A stretch of DNA of 20,486 nucleotides from a virus. Under the pieces are notes generated by a model that searched no databases, was not told the origin of the DNA, and worked only from the letters and a program-made list of their open reading frames with translations. Shown here piece after piece: positions 2,468 to 19,346 of the stretch. Numbering within the stretch: the stretch's first letter is position 1; every line of letters begins with the position of its first letter. Location: positions 1 to 20,486 of the IMG/VR virus record IMGVR_UViG_3300021091_004087; one strand, 5' to 3'. A program made the position numbers and the translations under genes.

Positions 2468-2484
2468 CGGGGTGTAGCGCAGTT
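2468..2484 (+). pseudogene. 5' remnant of a tRNA-Pro gene
   Basis: CGGGGTGTAGCGCAGTT matches the first 17 bases of the complete tRNA-Pro downstream (2887-2903) at 14 of 17 positions; the three differences are all in the acceptor stem. CGGGGTG is also the usual bacterial tRNA-Pro acceptor strand. The sequence then breaks off in the D arm, and the HNH promoter element begins. This looks like the 5' end of a former tRNA gene displaced by insertion of the HNH gene. Confidence 0.65.
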
Positions 2485-2487
2485 TTT

Positions 2488-2522
2488 TATAAATATTTGG
2501 GAATACAAATTGTAGTCCCAAA
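2488..2522 (+). promoter_or_regulatory. Late promoter with start-blocking hairpin (HNH 1)
   Basis: An exact TATAAATA occupies 2488-2495. It is followed at once by a hairpin: TTTGGGA (2496-2502) with TCCCAAA (2516-2522), one A/G mismatch, then TACA/TGTA around a 3-nt loop. The right arm reaches the A of the start codon. RNA from the upstream early promoter should fold this stem, while late RNA starting near 2501-2502 would lack most of the left arm. No clear Shine-Dalgarno sequence is visible. Confidence 0.7.
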
Positions 2523-2896
2523 TGAAAACAAGAATTTGTAAAACATGTGGAAACGAAAAATCTCTTGACTTGTCAAAATTTCCATCTGCTGGTATAATAA
2601 AAGGAGTTCAATATTACAGGCACAATTGTATTCCTTGTTACTCTAAACAAAAACTTGAGGAGGGTTCTTTAAGAATGCAAAAGTTTAGAGAATATAAAAA
2701 AACTTTATCATGCAATAGATGTGGTTATAATGATTATAGAGCACTTGAATTTCATCACCCCAATGATGATAAAGATGATTATGATCCTTGCGTTATAGCA
2801 AGAACAAGGTCTTGGGAAAATGTTATTAAAGAACTAAATAAATGTGAGGTTCTTTGTTCAAATTGTCATCGAATAGAACACTTTGCCGGGCATTAG
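2522..2896 (+). CDS. HNH homing endonuclease (first copy)
   Basis: This 124-aa protein has two zinc-binding CxxC pairs near the N-terminus (Cys6/Cys9, Cys36/Cys39) and an HNH nuclease core: Cys64-x2-Cys67, LEFHHP with His78-His79, and CEVLCSNCHRIEH with Cys112, Cys115 and His116. It is a free-standing homing-endonuclease-type gene, not inside a recognisable intron. Its last codons and TAG stop lie inside the first ten bases of tRNA-Pro, and a broken tRNA-Pro 5' end lies before it, which points to a tRNA gene as the insertion target. Expression is probably restricted to late infection by the promoter-hairpin element upstream. Confidence 0.85.
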   Translation: MKTRICKTCGNEKSLDLSKFPSAGIIKGVQYYRHNCIPCYSKQKLEEGSLRMQKFREYKKTLSCNRCGYNDYRALEFHHPNDDKDDYDPCVIARTRSWENVIKELNKCEVLCSNCHRIEHFAGH

Positions 2897-2960
2897 CGCA
2901 GTTTGGTAGCGCGTTCCGTTTGGGGCGGAAAGGCCAAAGGTTCAAATCCTTTATGCCCGA
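2887..2960 (+). tRNA. tRNA-Pro (anticodon TGG)
   Basis: The acceptor strands CGGGCAT (2887-2893) and ATGCCCG (2953-2959) pair perfectly. The anticodon stem TTCCG/CGGAA holds the loop TTTGGGG with TGG at 2921-2923. The T loop is GGTTCAAATCC. The first ten bases overlap the end of the HNH coding sequence. A small hairpin CCAGT/ACTGG (2964-2979) follows and could mark a processing site. Confidence 0.95.
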
Positions 2961-3800: not shown

Positions 3801-3830
3801 ATGACCCCTTATGGACAATATCTTATATAA
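3801..3830 (+). pseudogene. 5' piece of a small gene split by HNH 2
   Basis: ATG 3801 is preceded by AGGTGGTGGAG, a strong ribosome-binding sequence, but the frame (MTPYGQYLI) stops after nine codons exactly where the HNH control element begins. A matching open 3' piece follows the HNH gene (4279-4371). Joined near CTTAT/AAAAATTC, the two would give a protein of about 36 aa. This is an inference from frame, RBS and position. Confidence 0.45.
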
Positions 3831-3852
3831 ATAAACACAGTTATATAGGATA
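3819..3852 (+). promoter_or_regulatory. Late promoter inside RBS-hiding hairpin (HNH 2)
   Basis: The arms 3819-3830 (TATCTTATATAA) and 3841-3852 (TTATATAGGATA) pair over 12 bp with one T-G wobble and a 10-nt loop. The right arm contains the AGGA ribosome-binding site (3847-3850) just before ATG 3854. The exact late promoter TATAAATA (3826-3833) straddles the left arm and loop. A late RNA starting near 3839-3840 would therefore lose the left arm and expose AGGA, while early readthrough RNA would hide it. Confidence 0.75.
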
Positions 3853-3853
3853 A

Positions 3854-4288
3854 ATGGCAACTAGAGAACAAAAGTTAGAAGCAAAAAGACGCTACTATCA
3901 AAAAAATAAAAACAAACTAAATGTAGAATCAAGAGAACTCAACATTAGATTGAGATATGAAAAGAAAAATTTTATCATAGAATCTCTTGGATCTAAATGT
4001 CGTGGGTGTGGGACTACTGATTGTCTAGAAATAGATCATATCAATCCTGGACTAAAAAAAGATAGAAAATGTCTTTATGTTTGTTCTTGGGACAGAATCA
4101 AAAGTGAAATGGATAATCTCCAACTTCTCTGTAGTGCCTGTCACCAAGAAAGATCTCAGTTGCAAAAAGATGCTTCTTGGTTTTATTTTAAAAATCTTCC
4201 TCTAGAAGAGCAAAATAATCTAATGGAGCAATTCAAAAAAAAGGGTTCTACTTTACCTTCTTGGTGCCCGCAAGATAAGGCACAATAA
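3854..4288 (+). CDS. HNH homing endonuclease (second copy)
   Basis: This 144-aa protein has a basic, Lys/Arg-rich N-terminus (about residues 1-40) for DNA contact. The HNH core follows: CRGCG (Cys49, Cys52), LEIDHINPG with the catalytic-type Asp61-His62, an Asn-containing helix (DNLQLLCSACH, Asn88), and Cys93, Cys96 and His97. It is not closely similar to the first HNH protein outside the core, so the two are separate insertions rather than a recent duplication. It appears to interrupt a very small gene. Late-only translation is predicted from its upstream hairpin. Confidence 0.85.
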   Translation: MATREQKLEAKRRYYQKNKNKLNVESRELNIRLRYEKKNFIIESLGSKCRGCGTTDCLEIDHINPGLKKDRKCLYVCSWDRIKSEMDNLQLLCSACHQERSQLQKDASWFYFKNLPLEEQNNLMEQFKKKGSTLPSWCPQDKAQ

Positions 4289-4371
4289 AAATTCTTGCTG
4301 GTGCGGATGGGGTTACCCCGCCTGGTTTCCAATTTCCAGTTAAAGAATTGGTGGCGAGCCTGAGTACATAA
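4279..4371 (+). pseudogene. 3' piece of the small gene split by HNH 2
   Basis: A frame different from the HNH frame is open from 4279 to TAA 4369-4371 and reads like a real protein end (ILAGADGVTPPGFQFPV then KELVASLST). It has no start codon of its own or RBS, and it runs into a good terminator. It fits in frame with the nine-codon start at 3801 if the HNH element is removed. The ancestral protein is not identified. Confidence 0.45.
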
Positions 4372-16376: not shown

Positions 16377-16405
16377 AAAGGGGTCTTGACACCCCTTTCT
16401 TTTTG
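16377..16405 (+). terminator. Rho-independent terminator of the sugar cluster
   Basis: AAAGGGGT (16377-16384) and ACCCCTTT (16391-16398) form an 8-bp stem with a 6-nt loop CTTGAC, followed by CTTTTTG. It ends the long sugar transcript. Its loop and right arm also contain the -35 box of the next promoter. Confidence 0.8.
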
Positions 16406-16414
16406 CTATATAAT
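16386..16414 (+). promoter_or_regulatory. Consensus early promoter for hli
   Basis: TTGACA (16386-16391), a 17-bp spacer and TATAAT (16409-16414) form an exact sigma70-type promoter. The start site near 16421 gives a 20-nt leader to hli. The -35 box lies within the terminator hairpin of the upstream unit. Confidence 0.88.
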
Positions 16415-16440: not shown

Positions 16441-16650
16441 ATGACTGTTACCAAAAATGAGTTCGGGCAAATGAATATGTTTGCTAAAGAACCATCGATG
16501 TATATGACCAAGGAAGACCTTGAGCGTTACGGCATCGAACCTTATGCTGAGAAAGCGGAGCGTTTAAACGGACGTACTGCGATGATGGGATTTTTGGCAG
16601 CAATTATTTCATATGCATTGACAGGAAAACTTTTCTTCGGCATTATTTGA
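16441..16650 (+). CDS. hli: High-light-inducible protein
   Basis: This 69-aa protein has a polar N-terminal extension and a single membrane helix with the chlorophyll-binding signature AEKAERLNGRTAMMGF (residues 36-51; Glu40, Asn43, Arg45), followed by AAIISYALTGKLFFG. Hlips bind chlorophyll and carotenoid near photosystem II assembly intermediates and protect against excess light. Phage copies are thought to keep host photosynthesis running during infection. It has its own consensus early promoter. Confidence 0.95.
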   Translation: MTVTKNEFGQMNMFAKEPSMYMTKEDLERYGIEPYAEKAERLNGRTAMMGFLAAIISYALTGKLFFGII

Positions 16651-16657
16651 GTTTTTA

Positions 16658-16712
16658 ATTTCATATACCATACATTATAAATAATATAAAATATATGTGT
16701 GGTATATGAAAT
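16658..16712 (+). promoter_or_regulatory. Late promoter in loop of start-hiding hairpin (HNH 3)
   Basis: The arms 16658-16675 (ATTTCATATACCATACAT) and 16695-16712 (ATGTGTGGTATATGAAAT) pair over 18 bp with one T-G wobble. The 19-nt loop (16676-16694) starts with an exact TATAAATA late promoter (16676-16683). The right arm contains the start codon ATG 16706. RNA from the hli early promoter should sequester the start; late RNA from about 16689-16690 contains only the right arm. Confidence 0.8.
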
Positions 16713-17206
16713 CTCTTTACAACATCGGTGATAAAATACACCGACTTACTATCAAAGGAAAAACAGTTTGCACTACTCCAAGTGGAAGAAATCGTTCTCA
16801 TTATATTTGTGAATGTGAGTGTGGAAATGAAGTGAAGGTTGAGGGATATAACCTCAATAATGGTCGTTATAAATCCTGTGGATGTAAAAGAGCATCTGCT
16901 GGTGGAATATCAAACACAAAAAAATATAGAATGTGGAAATCTGCACAAGAGCGTGCTATTAAAAAAGGATTAGAATTTTCTATACGAGTGGAAGATATTA
17001 AAATACCAAAAACTTGCCCTTTATTGAACATAACACTTATTGAAGGTGATAGAGAATGTACTCCTTCACTTGATAGAATTGATAGTAAAAAAGGATATAC
17101 TCCAGACAATGTGTGGGTTATATCTCATAGAGCAAACCAAATAAAAAATGATGCTACACTTGAAGAATTAAAACTTATAACAGAAAACCTATCAAAAATA
17201 ACTTGA
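16706..17206 (+). CDS. HNH-like homing endonuclease (third copy)
   Basis: This protein is 166 aa from ATG 16706; a GTG at 16697 would add three residues. The N-terminal zinc module is YICECECGNEVKVEGYNLN (Cys35, Cys37, Cys39) with SCGC (Cys58, Cys60), a pattern common in phage homing proteins. The nuclease-like part is SLDRIDSKKGYTPDNVWVIS with Asp123 and Asp126, Asn135, then HRANQIKND (His141, Asn144, Lys147); the usual DHID is DRID here. It lies between hli and the ferredoxin genes without obvious intron sequence, so it is likely free-standing. Confidence 0.75.
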   Translation: MKSLYNIGDKIHRLTIKGKTVCTTPSGRNRSHYICECECGNEVKVEGYNLNNGRYKSCGCKRASAGGISNTKKYRMWKSAQERAIKKGLEFSIRVEDIKIPKTCPLLNITLIEGDRECTPSLDRIDSKKGYTPDNVWVISHRANQIKNDATLEELKLITENLSKIT

Positions 17207-17208
17207 CA

Positions 17209-17295
17209 ATGACCGAACTTTTCTTTACAATGACAAGCGTTGCCTTCTTTGTTCTATTGGCAGCATCCGTAGAAAAAATTTGCGAAACTTACTGA
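17209..17295 (+). CDS. 28-aa single-pass membrane peptide
   Basis: The frame opens 2 nt after the HNH stop and ends 6 nt before the ferredoxin ATG. The product has a hydrophobic helix (about residues 4-21, LFFTMTSVAFFVLLAASV) and an ending EKICETY. Its size and topology resemble small photosystem or cytochrome b6f subunits, but the sequence does not match one I recognise. It is supported by its snug fit in a photosynthesis/redox operon. Confidence 0.45.
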   Translation: MTELFFTMTSVAFFVLLAASVEKICETY

Positions 17296-19181: not shown

Positions 19182-19346
19182 GTAAACAAATGTTACGGAT
19201 TCCTGACAATTCGTTACATTGTTCCTCTTTCTAACCGAGACCTATGGGGAGGTAAAACACAGTCTCTCATACCCACACTGGAGGGTGGTGTGGGATATAA
19301 TGTATTCGTTCAGTTCCCCCTGAGCACTACTTACCCTTTAACGAAA
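19182..19346 (+). promoter_or_regulatory. Structured psbA leader
   Basis: The leader of about 165 nt holds two predicted elements: GAGAC (19237-19241) with GTCTC (19262-19266), or the competing ACCT/AGGT (19240-19243/19250-19253), and a stable hairpin CCCACAC (19272-19278) with GTGTGGG (19288-19294). No good Shine-Dalgarno sequence precedes ATG 19347. PhotoRC-type RNA motifs are known upstream of psbA in cyanobacteria and their phages; membership of this leader would need a covariance-model search. Confidence 0.45.

Follow-up and report, generated by a model that had tools for sequence, protein, structure and literature searches.

What does a long hairpin do when it holds a late promoter in its loop and the start codon of an endonuclease gene in its right arm? 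This arrangement is found in a 20,486-base IMG/VR virus record (IMGVR_UViG_3300021091_004087, positions 1 to 20,486; "the window" is this whole stretch), which is syntenic with T4-like cyanophages such as S-SRM01. The hairpin lies between hli and the third of three HNH endonuclease genes. The HNH gene probably carries it as its own timing device, which would keep the endonuclease from being made early in infection. The features of the locus are as follows.

16386..16414, + strand: sigma-70-type promoter TTGACA-17-TATAAT upstream of hli, 12/12 consensus matches; presumed source of early RNA
16441..16650, + strand: hli (high-light-inducible protein) gene, an open reading frame (ORF); S-SRM01 has an annotated hli at the same place
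16658..16675, + strand: left arm of the hairpin, ATTTCATATACCATACAT; missing from the predicted late RNA, with compensatory changes in relatives
16676..16683, + strand: T4-type late promoter TATAAATA, exactly the first 8 bases of the loop
16689, + strand: predicted late transcription start, in the loop, from T4 spacing
16695..16712, + strand: right arm of the hairpin, ATGTGTGGTATATGAAAT; contains the start region and ATG 16706
16706..17206, + strand: third HNH endonuclease gene, 166 amino acids (aa), from PHROG profiles and predicted fold
17203..17231, + strand: sigma-70-like promoter TTGACA-17-TACAAT for a small ORF and petF, 11/12 matches

The hairpin and its predicted RNAs

A first-pass annotation, made from the sequence alone, had described an 18-bp inverted repeat with one wobble and a loop of 19 nucleotides (nt), the late promoter exactly at the loop start and the ATG in the right arm. 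The measured geometry agreed throughout. The stem (16658-16675/16695-16712) has 17 Watson-Crick pairs and one U-G, and the loop spans 16676-16694. The in-frame ATG (16706-16708) starts a 166-codon ORF (P0001). A second ATG at 16695 is out of frame with the HNH ORF. A GTG at 16697 is in frame but is absent from the relative L006. The hairpin is the top-scoring contiguous stem in the window (score 17). Its local RNA fold had an energy of -21.5 kcal/mol (z -6.9), and none of 200 shuffles was equally good.

The third gene is identified as an HNH endonuclease mainly from PHROG profiles (endonuclease 1.4e-30, HNH 6.3e-16), and nuclease activity is presumed. No match was found among the Pfam and NCBIfam families searched. 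The predicted protein model had a predicted local distance difference test (pLDDT) score of 83.5. Its VIA Z score was 6.6 against PacI, over residues 67-156, and 5.2 against Gme HNH, both modest similarities. A PDB sequence search was uninformative for the protein, and Foldseek returned only a weak PacI match.

Cyanomyoviruses have NATAAATA as their late motif (PMC2984593). With T4 spacing (motif at -13 to -6) the late start would fall near 16689, in the loop as the annotation had expected, and RNA from there would be without the left arm. A terminator-like stem (16377-16398) has the -35 element of the hli promoter in its loop. The only terminator detected in a terminator scan precedes hli; none was found between the hli promoter and the hairpin. 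RNA from this promoter would include both arms, again as had been proposed. The energy predicted for opening the start region of the third HNH gene was 21.3 kcal/mol on the upstream RNA and 2.8 kcal/mol on RNA from the predicted late start. Folding of both transcripts, which the annotation had put forward as a check, thus gave a buried start on the long RNA and an open one on the late RNA. For 26 endonuclease leaders the median drop in opening energy was 8.5, and for 48 other genes with late promoters it was 1.6 (Mann-Whitney P 1.3e-8); these 26 leaders were mostly chosen for having the layout, so the comparison gauges effect size and not frequency.

The following sequence of events is proposed. 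Early RNA from the sigma-70 promoter before hli would run through the hairpin. The arms would pair on this RNA and bury the ribosome-binding region and AUG, and the endonuclease would not be made early. Once late transcription sets in, gp55, the late sigma factor of the phage, would initiate RNA at TATAAATA, in the loop. Late RNA would be without the left arm, the start would be single-stranded and the endonuclease would be made.

Conservation, transfer and spread of the layout

Relatives of the third HNH gene were taken from IMG/VR (L002-L019). TATAAATA is mostly kept in the stem loop among them while the letters of the stem vary. In an alignment of ten leaders of this family 94% of cells were paired, and 7 of 15 pairs were altered on both sides; slid controls were paired in 25-55%. 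In almost every leader whose late motif could be recognised, late RNA is predicted to start within the loop or in the last few bases of the left arm. Relative to the start codon, most right arms end at a position from -7 to +6.

The hairpin also appears to have moved with the endonuclease gene. Identity between contigs was 95.8-97.8% over hairpin and HNH gene, compared to 79-86% on the hli side and 71-81% on the downstream side. In S-SRM01 and S-T4, whose sites are empty, no such hairpin separates hli from the small ORF that follows. A pattern scan of IMG/VR viral contigs for the hairpin returned nine contigs, all already known carriers of this HNH family. These comparisons indicate that the hairpin belongs to the mobile gene and was transferred jointly with it. 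The cassette is more similar than its flanks and empty sites exist; the gene is a putative homing endonuclease.

At the downstream end the HNH stop codon falls within the -35 (TTGACA) of the promoter at 17203-17231, which serves a conserved 28-aa ORF (17209-17295) and petF. The same promoter element is present in S-SRM01, which has no HNH gene here, and the insert therefore ends precisely where the promoter stays intact. In L013-L018 an hli coding sequence directly follows the HNH stop. The hli frame of L017 extends upstream into the HNH 3' end, which may therefore supply the hli start.

Each of the three HNH genes in the window has this arrangement of late promoter and hairpin. The first-pass annotation had overlooked it at the other two, which have the following features.

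2488..2495, + strand: late promoter TATAAATA of HNH gene 1, a motif match
2495..2523, + strand: hairpin ATTTGGGAATACA/TGTAGTCCCAAAT covering the HNH gene 1 start (ATG 2522); predicted late start ~2501
2522..2896, + strand: HNH gene 1 (PHROG HNH 5e-26)
3819..3852, + strand: hairpin TATCTTATATAA/TTATATAGGATA before HNH gene 2, burying a Shine-Dalgarno-like AGGAT, with compensatory changes
3826..3833, + strand: late promoter TATAAATA of HNH gene 2; predicted late start ~3839, in the loop
3854..4288, + strand: HNH gene 2 (ATG 3854; Pfam HNH 1.5e-6)

The hairpin of HNH gene 1 is kept in L041-L044 and in phage S-CAM3. The late start at ~2501 lies inside its left arm, so late RNA would retain part of this arm although much of it would be stripped. 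In the second family 98% of cells were paired, 3 of 12 pairs were altered on both sides and the Shine-Dalgarno-like element is AGGAT or GGGAT. HNH gene 1 ends 10 nt into a tRNA-Pro (window 2887-2960), and a stretch resembling a tRNA 5' end, GGGGTGTAGCGCAGTTT (window 2468-2484), lies upstream of it, as if the gene had interrupted a tRNA gene and the tRNA 5' end had then been restored. The S-CAM3 relative likewise overlaps a tRNA-Pro. An Rfam wcaG RNA (window 4262-4365) overlaps the 3' end of HNH gene 2.

Endonuclease families that are unrelated share the layout, as do isolated cyanophages; a search for late promoters in hairpins before HNH genes of other cyanophages, which had been suggested, was thus positive. 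S-SKS1 has an HNH gene after psbD with the hairpin TACCTTCGTT/AACGAAGGTA surrounding TATAAATA. S-CAM3 has the layout at its relative of HNH gene 1. In S-SRM01 an endonuclease ORF lies near a match to a group I intron, flanked by the two annotated parts of psbA, with the hairpin AGGATAAAAGTG/CACTTCTATCCT and TATAAATA at the loop start. The timing model is directly testable in these three isolated phages because they have the layout.

The frequency of the layout was estimated in ~1.95 Mb around psbA and baseplate gene 6 that had not been selected for endonucleases, in which 72 TATAAATA sites precede an ORF. Spanning hairpins (score ≥ 11, P ≤ 0.02) were found at 5/17 homing-type genes and 0/55 others (Fisher P 4e-4), the homing-type labels having been assigned by similarity after the site list was seen. 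Leaving out the 27 gp25 genes gave P 0.005. PHROG supports most of the labels tested; L069:1871-2584 has no PHROG match and L140:17663-18310 matches only families without known function. Applied to T4 with a simpler shuffle, the detector picked out segB and gene e, and no others, among the T4 genes tested.

At 9/17 homing-type genes (one also with a hairpin) an intrinsic terminator immediately precedes the late promoter or runs into it, compared to 1/27 gp25 genes and 7/28 others. Terminators directly before or fused to TATAAATA were seen at L222:3125-3161, L104:11345, L107:2218, L069:8009, L086:3009 and L118:4139; these genes are other cyanophage endonucleases (F-CphI, GIY-YIG-like). A terminator at TATAAATA is apparently a second way of blocking early read-through. 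It is possible, and put forward tentatively for the class as a whole, that cyanophage homing endonucleases are kept late by one of two interchangeable insulating leaders carried in the selfish cassette, the first a hairpin with the late promoter in its loop, the second a late promoter to which a terminator is fused. Unrelated HNH, Endo VII-like and GIY-YIG genes would then have converged on the solutions of T4 genes.

Some late genes that are not endonucleases also scored as hairpins and were set aside because their arrangement is different. An endolysin-like gene (L005:4836 and L006:2643; PHROG lysis, C39 peptidase) has a terminator, TATAAATA and a small hairpin, an arrangement that recalls the timing of T4 lysozyme. 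In these two cases, and before a gene encoding MDAQEFRSL in L004, the left arm consists of TATAAATA itself, with a strong terminator upstream of it. Elsewhere in the window a PhotoRC-II RNA (19214-19308) precedes psbA, and the gene at 104-538, with TATAAATA at 78-85, has a Dps/ferritin-like appearance in our own reading of the sequence.

Other explanations for the hairpin

The inverted repeat could act as DNA, as a palindromic operator where binding of the endonuclease, or of some other dimer, over the late promoter represses it in the way that I-TevI acts at its own promoter. Operator and RNA roles could coexist, yet an operator is an improbable explanation for the repeat. The letters of the stem change while pairing persists, and the position of the right arm follows that of the start codon. 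The exceptions in the stems of 39 leaders, scored without favouring either type, comprise 30 G-U and 3 A-C cells, a count that related sequences inflate and that by alignment columns comes to ~11 and 3 in our own estimate. An excess of G-U over A-C is expected of RNA from the plus (coding) strand rather than of duplex DNA. The leader had no similarity to the insertion-site flanks (P 0.22-0.99), unlike an I-TevI-type operator, in a comparison that took the flanks in place of the cleavage site. A role mainly in RNA fate, for example in how the hli message is processed, how stable it is or where read-through ends, would leave the hairpin with no part in the timing of translation. Long hairpins can serve as RNase sites or 3' barriers and this one begins only 7 nt past the hli stop. 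Such a role is nevertheless quite unlikely. The hairpin travels with the HNH gene rather than with hli, and other families keep it beside other genes (psbD in S-SKS1, psbA in S-SRM01). The stem is not followed by a T-run, which rules out a terminator, and the sole terminator of the scan lies elsewhere. Very little speaks for a chance palindrome in A+T-rich DNA with TATAAATA unused. The motif alone is about as common as expected by chance (5 copies in the window, 3.6 expected), but three of the five copies sit 28-34 nt ahead of the three HNH genes. Dinucleotide shuffles of the whole window reached a maximum stem score of 14, and none of 60 matched the hairpin. Compensatory change and the repeated layout at three genes of one window also argue against chance, which the conservation refutes.

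Several observations weigh against the hairpin as a timing device. The Shine-Dalgarno of the third HNH gene is weak (GUGUGGUAU), and the stem of L006 has two mismatches. In L013 and L110 the opening energy was predicted to be equal on both RNAs. The wobble cells behind the coding-strand argument are not independent, as the column count reflects. The hairpin was missing from 12 of the 17 homing-type genes in the unselected sample and is therefore not obligatory.

Comparison with known systems

The same hairpin and late-promoter logic has been described for I-TevI, I-TevII, I-TevIII, segB and Aeh1 mobE (PMC2988022) and for T4 e, soc and 49 (PMC3014915). In I-TevI, and also I-TevII and I-TevIII, a hairpin buries the start on early and middle RNA, and the late promoter is positioned so that late RNA is without the 5' arm (PMC2988022). 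The likeness to I-TevI noted in the first-pass annotation holds in the parts that sequence can test, including compensatory changes. In contrast to the gene studied here, the T4 I-TevI group is intron-encoded and has a consensus Shine-Dalgarno. I-TevI is also an autorepressor; comparison of the leader with the insertion-site flanks gave no sign of autorepression here.

The annotation had also stressed the free-standing setting. The gene is indeed free-standing, but this is not a new twist, as T4 segB and Aeh1 mobE are likewise free-standing (PMC2988022). T4 SegB is a homing endonuclease whose leader has its late-type promoter within the left arm, and the detector finds its hairpin (AGAACATAAATA/TATTTATGTTCT). 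It differs in being a GIY-YIG enzyme of an enterobacterial phage, located in a tRNA cluster. The HNH gene for MobE, in Aeromonas phage Aeh1, has a hairpin over the ribosome-binding site and a late promoter, an arrangement that was tested experimentally (PMC2988022, PMC3014915). Aeh1 belongs to another phage group. T4 gene e (lysozyme) follows the same logic for a lysis gene (PMC3014915) and is not mobile. F-CphI of cyanophage S-PM2 is a free-standing homing endonuclease with TATAAATA just ahead of the gene; unlike the case here it has no spanning hairpin, and an intrinsic terminator runs into the late promoter.

In the literature searched, with subscription papers beyond reach, no such hairpins were described for cyanophage HNH genes, and neither covariation of such leader hairpins nor their transfer with the gene was found. 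A mobile gene entering an early photosynthesis operon (hli, psbD, psbA) would bring its own silencer for the operon RNA. Late-only expression of selfish endonucleases probably recurs in T4-like phages of marine cyanobacteria and is not a T4 curiosity. It is well supported that the cyanophage arrangement would join the known I-TevI, SegB and MobE kind, its presence in cyanophages being new to the literature searched.
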